Shown here: piece after piece, positions 41,101 through 59,208 of the stretch
Numbering within the stretch: the stretch's first letter is position 1
Layout: every line of letters begins with the position of its first letter
Source: Patellaria atrata CBS 101060
Taxonomy: Eukaryota > Ascomycota > Dothideomycetes > Patellariales > Patellariaceae
Assembly (NCBI GenBank): GCA_010093705.1
Contig: MU006092.1
Span: 564,623 to 628,622, forward strand
Length of the DNA: 64,000 bases
Direction: 5' to 3'
The notes under the pieces: model-generated
Database searches by the model: none
What the model saw: the letters and a program-made list of their open reading frames with translations, nothing else
Told to the model about the DNA's origin: nothing
Translations under genes and position numbers: made by a program

Positions 41101-42159
41101 TAACGGTTGCTTAATGGACTGGATGATCCGGAAGCGTGAATCGCACGTTTACTATCAGGATTCCGGGTTCATGGATTCTCGGAATCGGTAAGACACGTTA
41201 TGAAACGTGAAGGACTGAAGGAGCTGAATGTCTTTATTTCGTTGTTAATGTCTAACTCACCGTTTCTATGGACGTTCTGCTCCTCAGGGCCATTTATTCT
41301 TTTTCTCTTCCTCCTACTTTAAGATTATATCCTAGATTCTGAAGAGTTTAAGGAAGCAATTTATATGCCAGTATGCCATGTGCGGAGTTAGATCCAAGGG
41401 ATCGATTGTGTGATTGAAGAAGTTTATGGTGGTCGAATAGGGAAAGCTTTGGGATAGATTAAAGTTATTGGCGGATAAATTCCCGTCGTGGCCGGCAACC
41501 CATCGATCCACCAAAGTCCCAAGGGTTCCTATGAGCAGAACGCCCAGGAGCCCCAAAACAATCTAAACAGCCCACTAGGCGGCGAATGGATAATTGGAAA
41601 GCCGAGAAAGAGGGGAGATTCTCCTAGATCACAGAAAGAACAATTCCGCGTTGCAACTTCATTCCGAACGTCAGGCCTGCGGCTAAGAGTCGCTCAATTT
41701 GATGCTCTCTCGGCATTGTTCTATGGCCTCCTCGAGCTGTAACATCCCAATTTCTCTGCGTTGTCGATACCTTACTTAATAAGTCAGCTCTCCTGAAGAT
41801 ACCGTTGAGGTTGACATTCCTGCATGACTGTACGCTACCCTTCGGAGAGCATGCCCTCCTGTCTAACAATCAGCAGCAATTCACTTGCTCTACGCTCCGA
41901 TCCAATCCGCACCCCAACCTTGTATCGTATATCTCTATTGTAAATATACCCTCCAGTACCCTGACCACCGGCAACGTAACTGTTAGAAATTGCTCGTCAT
42001 TCCCATCACTGGAAATCCAGGAAGCACTTCAAACATCTTTGGAAATGCGAACAACAGTCGCAGACACCTGTCAGCTGAATACCGCGCGCCGAATTCGCGT
42101 AGAGACTGAACTACGCATCAACGGCTTCAACACGTACGGATAAGGAACGCCGCATTTGC
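38166..42159. other. 4-kb gene-poor region
   Basis: No confident gene. Several mid-size frames exist: 38721..39065 plus, 39831..40199 minus, 40577..40876 minus, 41488..41742 plus and 41805..42143 plus. None shows a recognisable domain. The 40577..40876 frame has the most gene-like codon use and is listed separately. Confidence 0.45.
40577..40876 (-). CDS. Possible hypothetical ORF, 99 aa
   Basis: Not recognised. It starts MMAICGAKCILIPEIAFTRY, includes FCYPVEVAMTLLYEREADLL, and ends LPESKQFEDIQI. Codon choice (TTCACACGCTACATCAAC) resembles real exons, and the composition is not low-complexity. It may be one exon of a decayed or spliced gene extending to the 39831..40199 frame; I could not find a convincing join. 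Confidence 0.22.
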   Translation of the reverse strand: MMAICGAKCILIPEIAFTRYINNPRITTRGIFDFLFCYPVEVAMTLLYEREADLLACQSMRLALEGLECCNQNPIPQKVSLHNFLNRLPESKQFEDIQI

Positions 42160-44196
42160 ATGGTTCAATATACTCAACAATTTCACATGGCGACTCAGCT
42201 GATTAGCGAAATAGCTACACCCACCCGTCTAAAGGGGGGCGAGGTAGTCCAGGTCGAAGAGATTTCTTACTCAGAGAAACCGCGCGTGTGTATCTTGTAT
42301 AATGAGGGTGAAGAGAGCATAGTCGGATTGATAGCGGAGATATTGGGTCAGGATGTGGCACTTGTGAATACTGTTCAAGACGATTGGGACAGCTCAGATG
42401 GAAAGGTTCTAGGTATCCCGGGCATATGTGTGGGGTCACATCTAGAGAAAAGACAAAAAACAAGGACTATCATTAACACTCACTGTGTGGACGGCGACTA
42501 CACTCGAAATGAGTACCTCAGCAATAGCTCAGACTACGAATACCTTTACACACGGAGCCCGTACCTGAGGAGAGACCTAACTAGGTTCCTGTCGTTCATC
42601 TTAGGCCAGAATAACCCTCATCGAGACCTAACCAATAAGACTAGGACAACACTGATATCGACCACCTTTCCAGATGTCCATGCAGCGTTACCTAACCTTG
42701 ATATTCTCTCCGTTGGTGCCGATGCGGTCGAAATCCGCGTCGATTTGTTGAAAGAGCCGCTCCCAGATGGCTCCATGAGCCAGGTCCCTAGCATTGAATA
42801 TGTTGGGGAGCAGGTTATGATTCTGCGGCAACGGACCGAGCTGCCTATCATTTACACGACAAGATGTACCAACGAAAACGGCCGATTCCCTATGGAAGAT
42901 CCGCAGTTATTTCTGAAATATCTCTTCAAAGCAATCCAGTGGGGCTGTGAGTACGTCGATGTCGAGCTTTGGTTACCAGAAGATATTAGACGAACCTTAG
43001 CAGAGCGTAAAGGCAACAGTAAAATTATTTCTGCATTCCATGACTTTTCTGGAACCTTCAAGTGGACCTCTGGCGAAGCTCACGAGCTTTTCAAAAAAGG
43101 TGCCGTCTATGGAGATGTCGTTAAAATGATCGCACTTGTTACTTCAACTCAGGAAAACTACGAACTGGAGTATTTCAGGTCTTTAGTTCAAGCACACTAT
43201 AAGCACCCCCGATTCTCTGGCCTAAATATGGGTCCTATGGGTCAATTATCCCGAACCGTTAACAAGATCTTCACACCAATAACGCATCCGCTTCTCCCGA
43301 TGATAGCTGCTCCAGGTCAACTCAGCGCTGCAGAAATCAACCAAGCTCTTCATACTATGGGTCAAATGCCCAAACTCTATATCTATGGAATTGGCAGCTT
43401 CCGAAAAGCAACACAGGGAATGTTCTTTGAAAAATGCTTCAACGAATTGAGTCTTCCTCACCAGTTTATATACGTTGAGAAGGGACCAAAAGGCTCAGTT
43501 GACTTACTCATGAAACGACCAAATTTCGGCGGTGCATATATCAACCCACCAGTATCAGCAGCAACGGCCCCTTTACCTAATTTGTCTGAGGCGGCTAGAG
43601 CTATCGGTCAAGTCGACACCGTTTTGCTTCGCTCAGATTCAACGCAGCCATCTTTCATCGGGGATAATGCTACATGGAAGGGCATCAGGGCCACTTTGAG
43701 TCGGGATTTTGTTCCGTCTGCATATTCAGGCCGCGCTGCCTTGATACTGGCCAACGCAGAATCTGATGCCGCCGCTGCAATTTTCGCTCTGAAAAGCCTT
43801 GGCATCGGTCCCATTTACACCATCGGGTTCAAGACTCAGGGATACCTTGCTTCCGAAGTACAGCCAGTGAGATTAGTAGAGGACGCGAAGATGCTCCAAC
43901 ATCCCTTCGTAATTATATCTGCATTGCCCGCAGAGAAGTCGATGCTTGTGGGACCTTTACTGAAACACTATAGCGATAAGAAGAGCCCTCCAGGTTCTGG
44001 TGGAAAGGTCTTCGTTGACTTAGCTTCGGGATCTAGAAAGGTTGATATCTTATCGACAGCGGCCCTCGCAGGTTGGACAGCATACGGGATCGCGGATGTG
44101 ACAGCATGGACAACGGTTGAAACTATGAGATTGCTTGTCGGACAGAACGTGCCATATGATTTCGTACGATTGGCATCGGGTCGAAGTCTGTACTGA
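42160..44196 (+). CDS. Quinate/shikimate repressor-like protein (QutR/Qa-1S family)
   Basis: Intronless, 678 aa, related to the C-terminal domains of the AROM protein, from which the fungal quinate repressor QutR/Qa-1S is derived. Residues ~35-155 occupy the shikimate-kinase position but lack any GxxGxGK[ST] P-loop. Residues ~162-385 match type I dehydroquinase with its key residues present: Glu in EIRVD, His294 in SAFHDFSG, Lys322 in GDVVKMIAL and Arg in GQLSRTVNKIF. Residues ~400-678 match shikimate dehydrogenase, but the catalytic Lys position of GASVTxPxK reads GAYINPPVS (Ser466) and the Asp of GDNTD reads GDNAT (Thr505). That pattern fits a sensor or repressor rather than an enzyme. No quinate catabolic genes are adjacent. 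The family is typically ~900 aa, so this is short at the N-terminus. Confidence 0.85.
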   Translation: MVQYTQQFHMATQLISEIATPTRLKGGEVVQVEEISYSEKPRVCILYNEGEESIVGLIAEILGQDVALVNTVQDDWDSSDGKVLGIPGICVGSHLEKRQKTRTIINTHCVDGDYTRNEYLSNSSDYEYLYTRSPYLRRDLTRFLSFILGQNNPHRDLTNKTRTTLISTTFPDVHAALPNLDILSVGADAVEIRVDLLKEPLPDGSMSQVPSIEYVGEQVMILRQRTELPIIYTTRCTNENGRFPMEDPQLFLKYLFKAIQWGCEYVDVELWLPEDIRRTLAERKGNSKIISAFHDFSGTFKWTSGEAHELFKKGAVYGDVVKMIALVTSTQENYELEYFRSLVQAHYKHPRFSGLNMGPMGQLSRTVNKIFTPITHPLLPMIAAPGQLSAAEINQALHTMGQMPKLYIYGIGSFRKATQGMFFEKCFNELSLPHQFIYVEKGPKGSVDLLMKRPNFGGAYINPPVSAATAPLPNLSEAARAIGQVDTVLLRSDSTQPSFIGDNATWKGIRATLSRDFVPSAYSGRAALILANAESDAAAAIFALKSLGIGPIYTIGFKTQGYLASEVQPVRLVEDAKMLQHPFVIISALPAEKSMLVGPLLKHYSDKKSPPGSGGKVFVDLASGSRKVDILSTAALAGWTAYGIADVTAWTTVETMRLLVGQNVPYDFVRLASGRSLY

Positions 44197-45439: not shown

Positions 45440-48210
45440 ATGTCAAGACCGCAAATAGGTATTGATCGTCTTCCTCAACGACGGATGAGTAACAATGAAC
45501 CACGAGAGTCTATGAATTGCAAAAGCTGTCGGAAACGAAAGGTAGACAATCCTATCAGGTTCTTGCCAAAGTAAATCACTCAGCCCAGCTAATAACTTGA
45601 GTATAAGATCAAATGCAATCGTTTACGGCCATGCGAAGCCTGCCAGGTGTTTGCATGTCCATGTGTATACGGTATGTCATCGAAGCCGGAAAAACTCAAA
45701 CACCACTGGAAAATTTTGGTTAATTGATTTTGTTCAAGATGCCGTACCAAAGAAGAGAGGTCCTAAGACGGATGTGCTAGAAGCGCTTCTTAAACGTGTG
45801 GATGGCTTGGAAAAGCGCCTCCATACGGAAGGGAAATCAGATTCCCCTCCCGAAAAAGAACAAGAACACATTGAAGACTTCAACGATCCTCCAAAGAGCG
45901 CTGAATCAGTCCCTCAGAGACCTTTACTCGAAATCGCTCCAAATCCAGACCAAGCGCCTACAATCCTCTCACCATCGGATCCGAGGTAGATCATCTTAAC
46001 GGCACAATTGAACCGTCCTTAACTTACATTCCATACAGTAACTCTGCGCAGATTCCTCCCACTCCAGGTATTCATCCTGGTGTATTGCTAGACATCTATT
46101 TTGCTCGAATTCACGGGAAGCCGTATCACATCTTCGATGAGAATACGGCTCGGCAACGAATTCAGAGCAATCAGCTTCCAGAACACTTGACTTGCGCCAT
46201 CTATGCTATAAGTGCACGGTAATGGTTAAATATTCTCCCATTCACTAGCTACTCGTCTGATCGTCAATAGTTATGCTTCTCAATTCGGTGGTTTCAGCGC
46301 CTCTGTGGAAACAGGCCTCGAATATGCCAACCGTGCTCGCATGGAACTTGACGTTGAGCAGCCATCAATTGAGGGTCTACAAACCCTCTTGCTCTTGACA
46401 CAGGCTTACTTTCAGATGGGTAAAGGAAAGAAAGCGTACATGCTATTGAGTAAGTTCAGAAGCGATCATATATGGAATTTAACTAAAGCATATCCAGCAT
46501 CTGGTATAAGCATGGCCTTTGCGCTTGAGCTTCATCGCGAGTTGCCACAATCCATAAAAATTCACTCTGCGGAAAGAGAGGGAAGGAGAAAGCTGTTTTG
46601 GTCGTGTTACCTATTAGATCGATTTGCAGCATGTGGCTCGAAACGACCCTCCTTAATAACGGACGAGTCCATTGTGTTACGTCTTCCATCCTGGAACATC
46701 CACCCTGGATCTGTACTCATTCAGGGAGACTATTTCCCAAACGGTTCAAACTTGCAGTACATGGGAGGACCTGACACTCGGAATCAAGGTGGTGCTGCGA
46801 TGCTCATAGGAATCGTTAGGATCTTGGGTATCACTAATCGGTATCTTGCTGCCGGTGGTGTTAAGGGAGATTCTCACTTCCCATGGCATTCTCTGTCCAA
46901 CTTATCGAAGATCCGACAAGAACTCGATATCTGGATATCAGACACCCAAGAGACCTTCGCATCACTGGAGACCCTCTTTGGACAACCTGATAGTACCGTT
47001 CTAGTTCTAAGTAAACTCATTTATCACTTGATACACTGTCTTATATATCGACCGTTTTTACCTATTGATCTCACAGAACTAGCTGGCACTGGACAACATC
47101 AATCCTGGCAGATCGAATCTACCAACCTTTGCTTTCTTCACGCAAACGCAATCGCTGAGCTTGTCGAGATTGGTAAGGCTTCTGCATCTATCCCAGATTG
47201 GCCTGCTTTCGTTGCCTATTGTATCTGTACGGCCGGTACCATTCACGTCCATGGCGCATACTATCGAGGTCGAGAAGGAGAGGTCTTTTCCGCTAGTGCA
47301 GAGTTTCTGGCAAGGGAGATGCAACAGCTTATGGATCTACGTTTCACTTGGGCTGGTGTTCAACACCAACGTGATACTCTTCAAAAGATTTACTTGTGTC
47401 ATTCTGAGCTAGTCAGAGCTCTCACTGCAAACCCTGTGCGGTTCTCACCAGGTTTCCAGTTGGAAGATTTCTTTGATCGATATCCAGGACAATCATTCAA
47501 TGCAGCGCACGTCATATTCTTTGACGTCGTAACGGATCCGCTACTTGAAAGGTAAGTCGACCATGGCCTCAGAATATAGATCTTCCTTAGCTAATTGCCG
47601 TAGTCCGTCATACAACGTGGAGTCTCGCAGTAACATCTACAGAGGCCCAAATGTCAGCAATATCCAAACCCAGGCCCAACCCCAAACTCATCCGACTTCC
47701 GTTCCACAACAGCGACCAGTAAAACCATTACCCTCGTCAGACGGTACTAGAAAACGCCGAGGTACAAAAACTGCACAAATAGCTATCCCTCCTACCCTCA
47801 AGCAATTTGCCACAACGAAAGCACTAAATAGGGACGTATCAGAACCGCTTTCGGGCCTATCTCAGCAGAATTCGCAACCAAAACAAGAGCATCTCTCACT
47901 CAGTACGTCTGAATCGCATGAACTTTCACTCCCAGCGGACTTTCCAGCCTTACCACCATTTTCGCCTAACTTTGCCTTGACCGGTCTCGACACAGATACG
48001 GTCGGCCAAGGCGATATCGGGGATACTCTGGTCAACGTTAGTTCAGCGTACGAGCAGCAAGGTACGCCCGGTGCGGCGAGCGCCTCGGGGTCTGCACACA
48101 CTGAGCCTGACAAGGATCCTTTCCTCAGTCTCCTGGAACAGCTGGCGGAGAACGAACATTCGCAAGGCGGGCCGAGCGAACTGGATTTCTTCCTTGGTGG
48201 CCAAACATAA
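45440..48210 (+). CDS. Zn2Cys6 fungal transcription factor
   Basis: DNA-binding regulator, 826 aa from six exons: 45440..45541, 45608..45671, 45739..45985, 46039..46218, 46271..47551 and 47604..48210. The binuclear cluster spans exons 1-2: [27 protein letters not shown] (C-X2-C-X6-C-X5-C-X2-C-X6-C). It is followed by a basic linker KKRGPKTD and a short coiled coil ([15 protein letters not shown]). The fungal-specific middle homology domain runs from about residue 150 ([20 protein letters not shown]) through [22 protein letters not shown]. The C-terminal ~200 residues are Gln/Pro/Ser-rich, with an acidic end ([12 protein letters not shown]), a likely activation region. The target pathway is not evident. 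It lies 1.2 kb from the quinate-repressor-like gene, same strand, but does not resemble QutA. Confidence 0.92.
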
Positions 48211-50442: not shown

Positions 50443-51780
50443 GGGCTCTGTAGGGCTGAGGTGATGGGATATCAGAGCGCCTCGGATGGGTGTAGGGTAC
50501 GGACTTTAGGGGGAGAGAGAGGGGGTATGGAGAAGGAATTGGGGGCGCCCGTGGTAGATATGTTTCAGGCCATTTGGCTGCGTTCAGTATGTAGTGTCTA
50601 ATTGGATCATACCTTAAGCAAGTGCACAGATGTCTCGTAAAGTTTGATATTCTCCGGGCGACAAAACGTGGGCCTTGAGCTGGCTGGACCCGTTGGAGCT
50701 GTGTTGAGGTCCCACCACTAAACTCAAAGACTATAGCGGCTTAAGCTTTTGGTGCTGACGTTTGGGGAATATGATGGTTTTCCGGCGCATATCTATCTTG
50801 GATGGTAGGTGCTGGTCGTCCGAAGGAACCTAAGGAGCGATGGGAGTCCGCTGAGCTGTGACGGAAAGTCGGATAGAGTAGAGTGCTCTGGCTAATAAAG
50901 CATAGCGCATTCGATGCGAGGTTACTCGAGTATTCAGCCAGATGTTTTGAAAACCCGAAACATCTGTCGCCCGAAACAGTGGAGAGACAACAGAAAACGG
51001 GTTGAGATGGAAGTTTTGTGGTTCAGGTTGTCAAACATCCGGATGCCTCGACCACGACGTCGGTTTGGAGGCCTTGAAGGTTTGTTCCAACGAGTGCCGG
51101 TAACCGAATTCCTCTTCCAGCAAGGTCATGACTTTAGCAAAGCTCTACCTTATTAGCTGATTGACAATCTTGCTGCTTAAAGCCCGAATCTACAATTATG
51201 ACGGCGCCTGACAGTTACTCCACCCCCAAAACCAATCTCGAGCTCCCCGATCCTCCCGCCGTCATTGGCCCCTTTGGCCCCCCAAGGCACCTTTTTCCCC
51301 CGCCCAACGTAAAAAGAGGTCAAAAGTGAAAGTCCCGTAGGATTTTGGCAAATCACCATCACGAGCCCAGATCTGGGATTTGCGTCCCTTAGTTTAGATA
51401 GCGGATCGATTGCTTTTAAGCCGATGTCACAGCCATGTCCGGATCCCAACTCTTGGGGAATCCATAGCCGCGATCCTCTGTCATTTCTACCTTAGCTGGC
51501 TTCTGTACCTCTCCGCGCTTTTGCTGTGCGCTGCTTTGCCATCTTTACCTCGAGTCCGTCTTGCGTGATAAGCCCTTCCTGGGAAAGCTATGTATCTGAC
51601 GCAGTGAGGAGTGACGCAGTGAGGAGTGACGCAGTGAGGAGTGACGCAGTGAGGAGTGACTCAGTTCCTGTCCTCTCGAACCTTCAATTGCTGCGCCTAC
51701 AAGGGGCCTGATCCAGCTCGTACACCTCCATTTCATAGCAATGGGCTGGACTTCCACGCCGCCGTACTGCGAAAACTACC
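50443..51780. other. Intergenic, promoter of the rhodopsin-MFS fusion gene
   Basis: No supported gene. Contains a 15-bp tandem repeat 115-180 bp before the next ATG. Confidence 0.5.
51598..51665. repeat. 15-bp tandem repeat, 4.5 copies
   Basis: Four identical copies of GACGCAGTGAGGAGT plus GACTCAGT, located 116-183 bp upstream of the ATG of the fusion gene, so in its promoter or leader. Confidence 0.97.
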
Positions 51781-54543
51781 ATGGAGTCGACTGACGAGGG
51801 TTCCGAGTCGAGACAGGATGTAGTCCTCGCCGTGACAATCGCTTTCTTGGCTTGCTCGACTGTTTTTGTGACTTTGAGACTCATATCACGCTTTGCGATT
51901 GTGCGCAAAGTCAATTGGGACGACTATTTTATGATATTTGCATGGGTAGGTTGAGACCCTGTTCTACGGTGGTGAAAATGATGCTGATATGTCCTCTAGT
52001 TGATATCGTTTGGACTATCTTTTGCCATATGTTATGGGACCTCTAAAGGCCTTGGACGACATCAGTATGATGTTCCGCATGAGTGGAACGCAGCTTTACG
52101 ACGATCTGAATATACATTTTCTGTTCTTTATGTCAGTCCTTTCTCATGTCCTGTCTCCCATTGTTTGACCCCTACTAATTCTCCGCAGAATCCAGCCTTG
52201 ATGGCAACGAAGACATCAATTCTAATCTTCTTTTTGTCATTGTCCAAGTCTCAGAGGATCTTCCGATGGGCCACGTATTCTACCCTCGTCGTCGTCAATG
52301 CGGCCGGGTTCGCCCTGACGATACTCAATATAATCCAATGTAGGCCACTTGGTGCTGCATTCAAAACACCAATCCCAGAATCTGCGACCTGTACAGATAT
52401 AGTTACTTTATACCTTTCCTCCGCCCCTGTCAATATCATTACTGACTTGGCAATCCTAATATTACCGATGCCTATCTTAACTAGTATGAGATTACCGAAG
52501 AAGCAAAAGGCAATCTTAGTAGTCACGTTTGGATTTGGTATCTTTGTAGCAGTGGTGGATGTCGTCCGAATAGCCTATCTCCAACAAGCTGCCGAACTTC
52601 GACTGAGGAACATCCAGGACATATCCTCTAATGGTGACACGAAGAACGCGGAAAGGAACGACTTTTCGTGGTACGCATCCTACACTTTTATGTTTTCCGC
52701 TATTGAGGTACATGTCGGTATTATGTGCGCCTGCGTTCCTGCCATGAAACCGCTATTTTCCAGGTATATGCCTCGACTCATTCGCGATGATAGCGATCCA
52801 GAAACTTCCTTTGGCAGCGCGTTTGGACCCGCAATGGATTCGATCAAAGCTGCTCAACGGAGGTCTCCCCCTGATCTTGACCCGATACCTAGTCCAGAAC
52901 CTACTCGTGGCACCAATACGGAAGACCAGGTAGATATGGTCGATTTTCTAACAACACCCGATATGCAGACTCTACCACCCGTGTTTGACTCGACCCAAAC
53001 ACAAAGGACAAACACGACTAGACTTACTATGACGGAAACACCGACTTTCTTCGATTTCGTTAATGTGAAAAAGAGGAAGAGCATGTTGCAGATGACCAAC
53101 AAGGAATCCTACTTTCCGGTTGCGATGGTAACTATATTATTCTTCGTCTGGGGCTTTGCGTACGGCCTCTTGGATGTTCTCAATTCTCAATTCGTGACAG
53201 TTTCACATATGTCGGTTGGTCAGGCCATCGGAATCCATAGCTCCTACTTTGGAGGGTATCTTGTCGCCTGCTTAACTTTCGGACGACTGGTACTCAAGCA
53301 TTGGGGGTTCAAAGCATGCTATATTGTCGGTCTTTGTGTATACGGATGCGGAACTTTGGTATTTTGGCCTTCTGCGGTTCTCACATCCTTTCCGGCATTC
53401 CTTGTCTCAAACTTCATTGTGGGTATGGGCCTTTCAACGTTGGAAATCTCCGCGAATCTTTTCATTACCTTGTGCGGACCTCCTCAATGGGCTGAGGTAC
53501 GGCTCAACATTTCTCAAGGAATTCAAGCAATCGGGACGGTCGTATCACCGTTGCTTGCACAGAAAGTCCTATTCAAGGCAGATGCATCATCTCTTATCCA
53601 AGTCCAATGGACCTACCTCGGTATATGCTTCTTCACCATCCTGTTAGCCCTGGGATTCTACTACGTCCCCCTCCCAGAAGCCACAGACGACGAATTAGAA
53701 CGCAGCGCAGACCGATGCGACGGGGCAAACACAGCCCGCATTGGTGGTGTCCAGGTGGTCACGATATCACTCGTTCTCGGGGTGATGAGCCAATTCCTCT
53801 ACGTCGGTGGCCAGGAAGCCATTTCCACTTCTTTCTCCGAATATCTCGCCGTCGTGAAGCCATCCATCAACCCCGTTAATCACCAAGCAATCGGCCACTC
53901 CGTCTTCGCTATCAGCCGATTCATCGCCGCCGCCTTGAATCTTTGGTTCCTCCAGCGCCACATCCTCACCTTCTTCTACCTTGGCACCATCGCCTTTGCG
54001 GCCGCAGCGATGAATTTTAAAGGAGATATCCCCGCCGCGATGGTCATTCTGCTGTATTTCTTCGAAGGTCCGATATTCATTCTGGTCTTTGCGATGGCGA
54101 TAAGAGGACTAGGTCGGCGGACGAAGGATGGCAGCGCGTGGCTTACGGCCGCGATAAGCGGTGGTGCGTTTATTCCTCCGATCATGCATGCGGTTAGTGA
54201 GAATAAGGGGGTCCAGTATTCGTACTGTGTTGTTGTGGCGGTTTTTGCGTTTGGTAGTTTACTGCCGTTGTATTATCAGGTGGTGCCGAGGGCGAGGAAG
54301 TTGGTGGATGATCCGCCCTTGGCCGGGGATTGTTATGAGCATGGGATGGAGGAGGATGCAGCAGCTGAGGAGGGAGAGGGTCGGGGTCAGGAGGAAGTGG
54401 AACAAATAAGGGATGAGGATGAAGCGCCCAGGTCGCCGGCGAGTGATAAGAGATTCATGAAGATTGTGCACACCATCTCGAAGAGGAGGAAAGATACGGT
54501 GTCCACAGAGCTAGGGGAGGGGAGTTCTTCCGGGCACAGTTGA
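51781..54543 (+). CDS. PTH11-like rhodopsin domain fused to FucP-type MFS transporter
   Basis: 883 aa from exons 51781..51945, 52000..52131 and 52189..54543. Residues ~14-290 form a seven-helix fungal rhodopsin (PTH11-type GPCR-like) domain. Helix 1 is VVLAVTIAFLACSTVFVTLR, WDDYFMIFAW|LISFGLSFAICYG opens helix 2, and NPALMATKTSILIFFLSLS is helix 3. CTDIVTLYLSSAPVNIITDL, LILPMPIL and SAIEVHVGIMCACVP follow. A ~110-residue hydrophilic Pro/Thr linker leads to a complete MFS of the L-fucose/sugar permease class at ~403-800, starting SYFPVAMVTILFFVWGFAYG, with LLDVLNSQF and later EISANLFITLCGP. A charged ~80-residue tail ends the protein. The junction lies inside exon 3 with no stop or splice site needed. 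Both halves would meet in the cytosol, so topology is compatible. Ligand and substrate unknown; a receptor-transporter role is inference. Confidence 0.9.
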
Positions 54544-55963
54544 GTCTTTATTTTTAGCAAGGGAATAGCGTGGTGTTAGGAGTTTATGCATGCGAGGAAA
54601 ATACATGGGACTGGCGGCTTTGTTTGTCTTGCTGTTTATGTGGTGGATGAGATGTACATAGGCTTTGATACCCTGTATGTATGGAAGAAGAGACGCTGTG
54701 GAGTAGAGTGTGAATAGATTATTGCTTCTGACTACTGTACACCAATAAGAATTTATATATTGATGTCTAGCTCAACAGCAAAATACTAATGTCCTTGAGT
54801 CCCCTTTCTAGTAATTTTGGGGTAATCCTATGAGGTCTTGCTAGACCTTACTTCTGTAATTTTATTCTAACCTCAACGCTTGATTCACCTTTCACCGCAA
54901 ATCACACTTAAATTCGGGTCTAGAGGAATCCAACAAAAGAGATGCCAATCATTCTACCGACTCGATTAAAACGAAAAAAAAAGGGAGCTGTTATGTTGAC
55001 AACCCCTTCCCCCTAAACAAGTGTCTTCCACTTGCGGGTTATGAACAAACAAACCGTAACTGCTTTCTATATATCCCAGAGATCCGTGACCTAGTGGTGA
55101 GAAATTTCCACCACACTGATCAGACTATAGAACCAACCGGTCCAGAGATGGTCGAACCTGAGAGAGGGGGATAATGCCCTCAAGCAGAAGTACCACACCG
55201 CTCCATGGATCTTGATTCGTGGGGAGCGGGTGGGAACTGTTTTGCTTTTTAAATTCTTATTTTTTTGTTTTTGTTACTTTTTTAAAAAGCTTTTTAGGAA
55301 CTTTTTAGAAAAGGGCGTCAAGGAACGGGGTTGTCAAAATAACAACTCCCCCCCCCAAAACAAAAATAAAAAAAAAAAAAAAGTCTTGACGCAAGATATT
55401 TCCATTTTTCTCACCTGGAGTCATTACAAATCAAATATTTCTTCGGTGTTAAACAGTTCTCTTCCACTAAATGAGCGATAATTCTATTTCCCGTTCGAGT
55501 ACTCCATGCGAATTATTTTCTAGTAGTCTGGTAAGTTAAAGTAAAGGTCAGCATGTGCGACGTCCTGGAGATATGGGCTCTAGCAGGCCGTGTATGAGGA
55601 TGTCACGATGACGGATATGTAGGGTTCTATATCTCCGGAGCTTCGTCTACACTCGACTACACTCCTTCCATCATTATTCTCTTGACCAAGGAAGGTGATG
55701 AGGCGGATATACGGCTGAGGGTAGGTTTTGACTGTTTCGGGGATGAGTTGCAATATCCGAGGAAGATATGATTTCTTCATTAGATGACGAAAGTATATAA
55801 AGAAAAGAGCTAGGGCACAAGGTTTAGATATCAGCATCATTATTTCTTTCGTGGTCATTGAGTCTATATAAACATAATCACCGTATCTTCTTACAATACT
55901 GATTGCTATATATCAACCATCGCTGCATCTTTGTCTCTTGAACTTTCGTATATCCACCACGAA
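54544..55963. other. Intergenic with MITE
   Basis: Apart from the inverted-repeat element, no gene. A TATATAAA lies near 55795, about 170 bp before the next ATG. Confidence 0.5.
54983..55350. mobile_element. MITE-like non-autonomous DNA transposon
   Basis: A 24-bp terminal inverted repeat: left GGGAGCTGTTATGTTGACAA then CCCC (54983-55006). The right end (55327-55350) is its reverse complement with two mismatches. The 368-bp interior has no coding capacity and includes T- and A-rich hairpin-prone tracts. Flanks are A-rich on both sides, so target-site duplications cannot be defined by eye. Superfamily not assigned. Confidence 0.75.
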
Positions 55964-57309: not shown

Positions 57310-58569
57310 TCACCTCCCAGCGTTCGCACTCGTCAAGACCCCCACCTTCTCCCACGCCCCCTTAACGCTCAAAGCAACAGACTCCCCATAAAGCATCCTC
57401 GCCATCTCCACCGTGACCTTCGCAAACCCCGCAAAATCCACCCTCGACCCGATCTTCCCCCCGGTAAGCGTCTTATACCAAATCTGTCCGGGCTTCTCCC
57501 AGCTATTCCCCCCCAACGCCATAGCAACGAGGTAAAACGCATGATTCGGGATGCCGGAATACAGATGGACGCCGCCGTAATCGTTATCCGCGTCGTCGGG
57601 GAGGGGCCTATACCCCGCCATAGTAGCGGGCTGGGGATCCCTTCCCAGGATCTCATCATCGTACGCCGTCCCCGGGGCCTTGAGACTGCGCAACGCGGCC
57701 CCCCTTCTCGCGACGGGAAATAGCGTCTGACCTAGCAACCAATCCGCGGTGGCCGACGTCTGACGAAAATGCCACTGCTCGGCCATGCACGCGAAAACGT
57801 CGGACACAGACTCGTTCAGGGCCCCGCTCTGCCCGCTGTACTCGAGCCCCGCGGTATACTGCGTGACGGCGTGGGTGAGCTCGTGGGCGACGACGTCGAG
57901 GGAATCGGTGAAGGCGTCGAAGTAGATGCCGTCGCCGTCGCCGAAGATCATGCGCGTGCCGTCCCAGAGCGCGTTGTTGAAGTTGCGCTCGTAGTGCACA
58001 CTGCCGAGGAGCGCGAGGCCGTTGTTGTCGAGGCTGTTGCGCCCGAAGACGCTGAGGTAGAAGTTGTATGTGATGCCGAGGGCGTCGTAGCAGTTGTTGA
58101 TGGAGCGGTCGACGACGCGGGCGGAGCCTTCGCGGCGGGCGAGCGTGCCGGGAAGGGAAGACCGGTTGTTGCAGGTGTAGATTGCGCGGGTTAGGGTCGT
58201 GGTTTTAGTTGCGGCGGCGAGGATGGATTGTTCTTTGCGGGCGTTGCGGACGTCTTCGGCGAGGTGGAGGGCTTCTGTTGCGCGGTCTTTGACGCTTTGA
58301 GGGGCTTTTGGCGCTCTTGCTACGTGGGAGAACACGTGTGGTGGGAGGAATCCCGATGCTGGGTTGATTGGGGAAACGACGGTCTTGCGGAAGGTATGGA
58401 CACCGTGAGCTGCGTTCAATGCTGCTTGAGCTCCAGCGCGGGTATCGTCATGTGCGTTAGGAGCATTGGCAATGTTCACGAGAGTGAAAGGAGCGATGAA
58501 ACCACAAGAACGTCCTGCGTGGCTGCAGGACTGTGAGGGGATTGAGATATCTTCGAAAGAGGTAGACAT
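57310..58569 (-). CDS. Protealysin-like M4 metallopeptidase
   Basis: Zinc endopeptidase of the thermolysin family, intronless, 419 aa. The N-terminal ~90 residues match the short protealysin-type propeptide (CGFIAPFTLVNIAN, then ALNAAHGVHTFRKTVV). The catalytic domain has AIYTCNNRSSLPGTLARREG. The zinc site is His229 and His233 of HELTH with catalytic Glu230, and third ligand Glu253 in GALNESVSDVF. The proton donor is His335 in YGGVHLYSGIPNHAFY. No signal peptide precedes the propeptide, as for bacterial protealysins. The ORF is markedly GC-rich compared with its AT-rich upstream flank. The frame is open to 58758; the ATG at 58569 is chosen because the propeptide fold starts soon after and the upstream part is atypical. 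M4 enzymes are mainly bacterial, so ancient horizontal transfer is plausible. Confidence 0.93.
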   Translation of the reverse strand: MSTSFEDISIPSQSCSHAGRSCGFIAPFTLVNIANAPNAHDDTRAGAQAALNAAHGVHTFRKTVVSPINPASGFLPPHVFSHVARAPKAPQSVKDRATEALHLAEDVRNARKEQSILAAATKTTTLTRAIYTCNNRSSLPGTLARREGSARVVDRSINNCYDALGITYNFYLSVFGRNSLDNNGLALLGSVHYERNFNNALWDGTRMIFGDGDGIYFDAFTDSLDVVAHELTHAVTQYTAGLEYSGQSGALNESVSDVFACMAEQWHFRQTSATADWLLGQTLFPVARRGAALRSLKAPGTAYDDEILGRDPQPATMAGYRPLPDDADNDYGGVHLYSGIPNHAFYLVAMALGGNSWEKPGQIWYKTLTGGKIGSRVDFAGFAKVTVEMARMLYGESVALSVKGAWEKVGVLTSANAGR

Positions 58570-59208
58570 TGGTAGGTGAATGGTAGTGGAAATATGCTCG
58601 TTATACAGATTTAGGTAGGACGAAGGCTGGAAGTATGAATACAATATAGTGATACAGAAGAGTATGGAGATGTGAAGAAGCGATTTTACAGAATTTGAAG
58701 GAATCGACTTGATATAGGAGAGTAGTCCTTCTTCCAATGGCCTTTCTACTACTATCAATATAGTAGAGGTAGGTACTGTACAGCTGACGGACAGCAGGAG
58801 TAGTTCCCTGAACCTGTAATAAAGTCCCTCGAATACAGCGACTCCTGGAAATATGATATGACTTTCTACCTACGTTCTGCCTCAACCTAACAGGTTCGCT
58901 CCTGAAACCCTATAAAAGGTGGAATCTCGATGTGCGGATTGCTCCTGCATATTTGAGTCTTCATCCTATGCCCCGGGAAACTATGTCCTCGACCTCTCGA
59001 GTTTGGGTATATCGCCTGTTGCCCTCCAAAGTAGACCAGAGAGGTAGATCAATCCCAAAATAGAACAAGTCTCCTCCCACCACCTTAGGAGATACCCGTA
59101 GTAGTGTACTTGGAAACGGTGCCTTCGAGAAGAACTGCATCAAAAATATGGATGCAAGTAGACATTATGCCGTAGATAAATTGAATATATCTAATCCGAA
59201 CCTCAACC
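58570..59208. other. Intergenic, peptidase promoter and COX18 3' end
   Basis: No supported gene. A TATAAAAG (plus strand) is present near 58911 with no clear partner gene. Confidence 0.45.

Follow-up and report, generated by a model that had tools for sequence, protein, structure and literature searches.

The window analysed here is the whole stretch of 64,000 nucleotides (contig MU006092.1, positions 564,623 to 628,622 of the forward strand) from Patellaria atrata CBS 101060, an ascomycete of the class Dothideomycetes. At 51781-54543 of its forward strand, it encodes one chain of 883 residues, in which a linker of some 110 residues joins a PTH11-like seven-helix half to a complete FucP-type half of the major facilitator superfamily (MFS). 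A preliminary description, made from the sequence without database searches, had proposed such a fusion within a single gene. It is borne out by the open frame, by a match to the Pfam family PF20684, by a match to Escherichia coli FucP and by a deposited gene model, which is fused as well.

The gene has three exons. Exon 1 (51781-51945, residues 1-55) encodes the N-terminus, transmembrane helix (TM) 1 and the start of TM2, exon 2 (52000-52131, residues 56-99) encodes TM2 and the start of TM3, and both are delimited by the frame, by GT-AG junctions and by agreement with the deposited P. atrata model. Upstream of the ATG at 51781 there are in-frame stops without an intervening in-frame ATG. Intron 1 (51946-51999, 54 nucleotides) runs from GT to AG; after its removal the frame is kept and the residues match the deposited model. 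Intron 2 (52132-52188, 57 nucleotides, GTCAGT...CCGCAG) is likewise of the GT-AG type, and 24 of 355 homologous proteins start just past this site and continue from the seven-helix half into the MFS half. Exon 3 (52189-54543), an open frame of 2355 bp including the stop codon, encodes the remainder of the seven-helix half, the linker, the MFS half and the tail. The domain junction and the linker (approximately 52768-53097) lie inside this exon with neither a stop nor an intron, in agreement with the earlier claim of a 2.36-kb exon which needs no splicing at the junction; the two short introns lie upstream. Both sequence stretches on which that claim was built share one reading frame (stop-to-stop 52000-54543, forward strand, 847 codons). 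The deposited protein of P. atrata CBS 101060 (P0001, 882 residues) is identical to the window protein over residues 1-835, and the difference is confined to the C-terminal tail, beyond a predicted C-terminal splice. In this tail (54286-55310), residue 835 of P0001 is followed by spliced pieces near 55134, 55209 and 55301, and the window DNA is open to 54543.

The two halves and the linker

The PTH11-like half (51814-52767 with introns inside the span, forward strand, residues 12-292) is recognised by PF20684 (Fung_rhodopsin), by seven helices predicted by AlphaFold2 and by invariant residues. PF20684 scores 154.5 bits in the frame 52000-54543 (Pfam cut-off 27, E-value 4.5e-45) and 180 to 204 bits in the four other fusions scanned. 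Conservation was assessed in an alignment of 93 diverse fusions (94 representatives below 78% identity out of 218 near-full-length fusions, minus P0052, P0115 and P0144, plus P0110 and P0249). C150, C167, N181, D185, D223, R226 and E272 are invariant in all 93. Helix number and loop charges predict an orientation with the N-terminus outside and the C-terminus inside. The CFEM domain, the mark of PTH11 proper, was not found by Pfam scan in any of four full-length fusions; Pth11-like receptors without CFEM are recognised as such (PMC13308352). A survey of 2025 (PMC12842992) asked for six to seven helices in the whole protein and the window chain has 19 predicted helices; here, the PTH11-like part is a domain within a larger protein. 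Among solved structures, sequence searches gave no credible relative of this half (best E-value 5.6), and in fold searches with the full chain the rows listed were occupied by matches to the MFS half. A retinal photoreceptor is not favoured: by eye, no lysine is present in TM7 of the window protein, and fungal microbial opsins form a separate Pfam family, PF01036 (PMC12842992).

The MFS half (53098-54306, forward strand, residues 403-805) comprises twelve predicted helices. PF07690 (MFS_1) lies narrowly over its cut-off in the frame 52000-54543 (35.3 bits versus 33.4, E-value 7.8e-9). The firmer match is E. coli FucP, whose structures 3o7q (E-value 8.3e-31) and 3o7p (E-value 1.4e-30) are the only PDB sequences matching this half at E <= 10, and the predicted model shows the twelve-helix MFS fold expected of the FucP family. 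Of the FucP residues which we take to be the proton and substrate residues, D46 is kept in 91 of the 93 fusions and E135 in all of them; Q159 is also kept. By these matches, the MFS half belongs to the fucose:H+ symporter (FHS/FucP) family.

Elsewhere in the 28.3-Mb P. atrata genome there are two unfused FucP-like MFS genes, on contigs C29 (220580-221953, reverse strand) and C19 (101437-102490, reverse strand), both interrupted by introns; they lend themselves as outgroups to the MFS half of the fusion. PF20684 matches at least 76 stretches of the genome with exons counted singly, a large PTH11-like repertoire in a species which is not known to us as a pathogen. C29 and C19 are absent from these 76 matches, among which only the fused gene is reported in an open frame of more than 480 codons.

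The linker (52768-53097, forward strand, residues 293-402) would be cytosolic, and its residues 306-392 have very low confidence in the AlphaFold2 model and appear disorder-like. That both domain ends at the junction should be cytosolic, as first proposed, agrees with the loop charges and the predicted helix order. Across the 93 fusions, the span from P287 to F417 measures 94-174 residues (median 135). Two motifs stand out. Motif 1 (52930-52968, forward strand, residues 347-359, DMVDFLTTPDM...) contains a small predicted helix at 349-354. Motif 2, together with a juxtamembrane stretch, occupies 53044-53112 (forward strand, residues 385-407, TFFDFVN...NKES). Within DFLTTP, D is conserved in 68, F352 in 88, L353 in 90, the two threonines in 72 and 59 and P356 in 83 of the 93 fusions, and [ST]P is found at this site in 65; to see a phosphodegron or docking site in DFLTTP would be conjecture. 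The residues of FFDFV are conserved in 90, 92, 92, 93 and 91 fusions, respectively. The mean majority-residue frequency amounts to 0.59 and 0.66 in the motif regions, compared to 0.35 and 0.37 in the surrounding linker. The linker motifs are conserved, and the junction is therefore translated and constrained. As far as the alignment tells, a translated junction under selection accounts for this conservation and a merge of two genes does not.

Prediction of the full chain, suggested from the outset as a check, was carried out by AlphaFold2 with the deposited Patellaria chain and the 93 fusions. The model has seven (12-292) plus twelve (403-805) helices, 19 in total, with a mean predicted local distance difference test score (pLDDT) of 83.2 and a predicted template modelling score (pTM) of 0.81. 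The model hints at a direct packing of the two halves, because a pTM of only about 0.5 was estimated if they were not placed against each other.

Distribution and history of the fusion

A search with the full chain retrieved 1387 proteins at E <= 0.001. All of the best 120 of these 1387 carry both PF20684 and PF07690, with 52-98% identity over 80-100% of the query. Since both domains exceed their cut-offs and all 120 of the 120 homologues listed share the architecture, the fusion is, at the sequence level, more than chance. When a relative from Aspergillus sclerotialis was used as query, both domains were found in 115 of the 120 matches listed, query included; the other five are four pieces without PF20684 and P0346, for which precomputed Pfam annotation gives PF20684 alone. 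Named fusions, among the matches listed, come from moulds and lichen fungi of at least five classes of Pezizomycotina, namely Dothideomycetes, Eurotiomycetes, Lecanoromycetes (Pleopsidium), Candelariomycetes (Candelina) and Geoglossomycetes (Geoglossum). The deposited Geoglossum model (P0146) comprises linker and MFS half together with part of the seven-helix half. Fusion-bearing genera which we assign to Eurotiomycetes are Aspergillus, Penicillium, Paecilomyces, Rasamsonia, Thermoascus and Elaphomyces. Sordariomycetes and Leotiomycetes do not occur among the matches listed, which, with 120 matches per list, does not speak against a fusion in these classes. One fusion, P0115 (Pleosporales sp. 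CAS-2024a, 1024 residues), has an additional PF00462 domain by precomputed Pfam annotation, presumably a glutaredoxin; this may be a model merge.

Custom profiles for the three parts were built from the best 120 full-chain homologues and the window protein, which match by construction. Of the 355 distinct proteins retrieved, which come from many genomes and metagenomes, 297 match the profiles of all three parts (seven-helix half, linker and MFS half). The remaining 58 consist of 34 proteins with linker and MFS half, starting inside the linker, and 24 with the MFS half only. The two-domain architecture with its linker is thus counted in 297 proteins, and this refutes the possibility, raised in the preliminary description, that the orthologues are always two separate genes side by side.

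A further search used the MFS core only (396 residues), with length limits chosen to favour unfused proteins. Among the 120 matches listed, precomputed Pfam annotation gives both domains for 39 and PF07690 alone for 81, and the custom profiles find seven-helix sequence in 62, a start in the linker in 34 and the MFS half only in 24. Protein starts in this list cluster in TM7, in the linker and directly after the intron-2 site, a pattern that open reading frames interrupted by introns would be expected to show. Many of the 24 MFS-only proteins are fragment-like, with their initial methionine inside TM1, shortly ahead of it or within a linker-like tail. A few may be genuinely separate genes, e.g. 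P0131 from Elasticomyces elasticus (450 residues).

Pairwise distances in one half correlate with those in the other at 0.90, a value reached by none of 999 permutations. Moreover, the trees of both halves set apart the same 31 sequences found with the Aspergillus query, with support of 1.0. These results fit a single old fusion, which would have been vertically inherited since before the split of Dothideomycetes and Eurotiomycetes.

Possible function of the fused chain

The sequences establish that the two halves are fused, that this fusion is conserved in five classes of Pezizomycotina, that the linker is constrained and that hallmark residues are retained in both halves. We propose, with a probability of roughly 0.5, a sensor-transporter in one chain, probably a sugar porter coupled to protons which is regulated by, or reports through, the PTH11-like module. 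With confidence falling from one step to the next, we infer that the MFS half would be an active porter which moves a sugar or deoxysugar together with protons, that the seven-helix half would be a receptor-like module beside it, and that the halves would be coupled such that a ligand on one alters how active the other is, how it signals or how it is turned over. Coupling could run via contact and via the linker motifs, which would serve as cytosolic control points. The chain would then be a transceptor arisen by gene fusion, in which either half could command the other. More tentatively, the fusions may form an old and widely kept class of covalent receptor-transporters, in which the receptor-like PTH11 module directly gates the attached sugar porter, or reads its state, via the two-motif linker and ties nutrient flux to receptor signalling.

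Several observations weigh against the sensor-transporter. AlphaFold2 with Eurotiales sequences only (85 less diverse sequences out of 115 proteins first found with the Aspergillus query) gave the same helix order with a pLDDT of 69.6 and a pTM of 0.65, and the hint of packing is judged from pTM, not from coordinates or an error matrix. Motif 1 is eroded to FL..P in Eurotiales. In the MFS half, N43 of FucP is replaced by G and N162 by Q in all 93 fusions. The fucP equivalog TIGR00885 scores 148 to 168 bits in all four proteins scanned, short of its cut-off of 280.4 bits, and the MFS half is therefore not classed as an L-fucose permease. Finally, the halves of any fused gene would be inherited together, and their shared history is hence no proof of functional coupling.

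The strongest competitor, which we consider unlikely though clearly ahead of the others, is that the seven-helix half is a passive partner, neither sensing nor gating, which merely aids folding, trafficking or membrane-domain placement of the FucP-type porter. Receptor roles of PF20684 members have been assigned mostly by analogy, and the packing suggested by the model would be equally expected of a structural partner. However, many polar or loop residues of this half are invariant (the seven counted above in 93 of 93 fusions) and it is as conserved as the MFS half, with a mean majority-residue frequency of 0.71 versus 0.77 and 0.61. Therefore it appears unlike a mere anchor, which would be expected to drift.

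A smaller share of probability falls to two products, arising either by cleavage in the linker or by an internal start which also yields a free MFS protein, so that the fusion would mainly be an expression unit. The linker is long and predicted to be disorder-like, motif 1 contains an in-frame ATG in fair context at 52936, methionines in motif 1 are present in many relatives, and 34 of the 355 database proteins start in the linker, although gene prediction from intron-cut DNA explains the latter. Against two products, the junction has neither a stop nor an intron, and motif 2, which lies downstream of the motif 1 ATG, would remain on the MFS product, whereas by eye it is absent from the N-terminal tail of the C29 paralogue.

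We regard as improbable, and slightly more so, that the MFS half binds sugar without transporting it and thus forms the ligand-binding part of a signalling receptor. Yeast Snf3 and Rgt2 are precedents for MFS sensors which bind sugar and do not transport it, and the altered N43 and N162 positions would suit such a role. D46 and E135 are kept in the numbers given above, however, and the unfused C29 paralogue shares the same WGFAYGLLDVLN stretch with the fused MFS half. Least of all, with a negligible probability, do we credit an artefact in which two adjacent genes were merged locally by the assembly or the gene model: automatic gene models can fuse neighbours, and the preliminary description itself cautioned against a local merge, but this explanation was rejected in view of the intron-free open frame at the junction in the window DNA, the homologues with both domains (297 of 355, the first 120 by construction) and the conserved linker motifs. 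No independent assembly with a stop or frameshift at the junction was encountered.

Known systems and gene neighbourhood

No description of a PTH11-like/MFS fusion was found in the open-licence literature of PubMed Central (PMC), among the matches listed, in line with the preliminary description, whose author was not aware of any such system. The fusion is not described in the available parts of PMC2526178, PMC3569664, PMC13116585 and PMC8409312. The sequences are public yet, as far as found, undescribed; in databases they go by automatically assigned names, for instance 'MFS monosaccharide transporter-like protein' or 'Rhodopsin domain-containing protein'. A survey of G protein-coupled receptors (GPCRs) in 1357 fungal species kept only proteins with 6-7 helices and more than 75% coverage of query and hit (PMC12842992), and an inventory of oomycete GPCRs kept 5-9 helices and discarded transporters (PMC5784254). 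The fusion was probably missed by surveys owing to such helix-number filters or to the removal of transporters.

RhtA, the L-rhamnose transporter of Aspergillus niger, is assigned to the fucose:H+ symporter family (TC 2.A.1.7) and is, according to its authors, the first functionally validated eukaryotic one with a FucP domain (PMC5161314). It is likened to the MFS half by family, not by sequence distance, as a fungal FucP-domain MFS transporter; unlike for the fused protein, a seven-helix half is not mentioned in the available part of that report. PTH11-like receptors (class XIV) share PF20684 and the predicted N-out/C-in orientation with the seven-helix half. The described ones consist of the receptor with its tail, preceded by CFEM in some cases, whereas here a whole transporter follows (PMC13308352, PMC12842992). 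GPCR-bigrams of oomycetes and other protists resemble the fusion in combining an N-terminal seven-helix receptor-like half with a C-terminal effector domain. Their accessory domains are catalytic (kinases, cyclases, phosphodiesterases), whereas an MFS transporter is found here, and the chain thus falls outside the bigram definition (PMC6033456, PMC5784254). The transporter is a new partner within a known kind, a receptor fused to an effector. For the yeast transceptors Gap1, Mep2 and Sul1/Sul2, transport and receptor roles have been proposed to reside in one polypeptide, as we propose here; in these the transporter itself signals, whereas in the fusion a separate receptor-like module with putative signalling is attached. 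In bestrhodopsins, a seven-helix sensor is likewise naturally fused to a membrane transport protein. They differ in that a microbial rhodopsin is joined to a bestrophin channel gated by light, and their families are unrelated to those of the fusion.

PTH11-like receptors are reported to be the most abundant class of fungal GPCRs (29.6%; PMC12842992), and no ligands are known for those Pth11-like receptors which have been studied in infection (PMC13308352). A member tied to a sugar-type porter offers a concrete ligand hypothesis, namely the substrate of the porter or a compound of the same pathway. The fused protein is also a natural construct for asking if gating of a transporter by a receptor is possible in a single polypeptide, and it is present in the genetically tractable genera Aspergillus and Penicillium.

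The neighbours of the fused gene in the window encode a protein with a dehydroquinase domain, a fungal transcription factor and an aldo/keto reductase, and a sugar-pathway cluster was not recognised among them. The first of these (42103-44196, forward strand) has a type I dehydroquinase domain (PF01487) in mid-protein with long flanks and presumably resembles the quinate-repressor type. Two overlapping fungal transcription factor frames lie upstream of the fused gene at 46230-48210 (forward strand), with PF04082 in 46230-47552 and none in 47533-48207. By eye, a 15-bp unit (roughly gacgcagtgaggagt) is repeated about four times in tandem at 51598-51660, within the 5' region of the fused gene. 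To our knowledge, thermolysin (M4) peptidases are uncommon in fungi; a frame of 519 codons at 57310-58869 (reverse strand) contains both M4 domains, PF01447 and PF02868, and was possibly acquired from bacteria.
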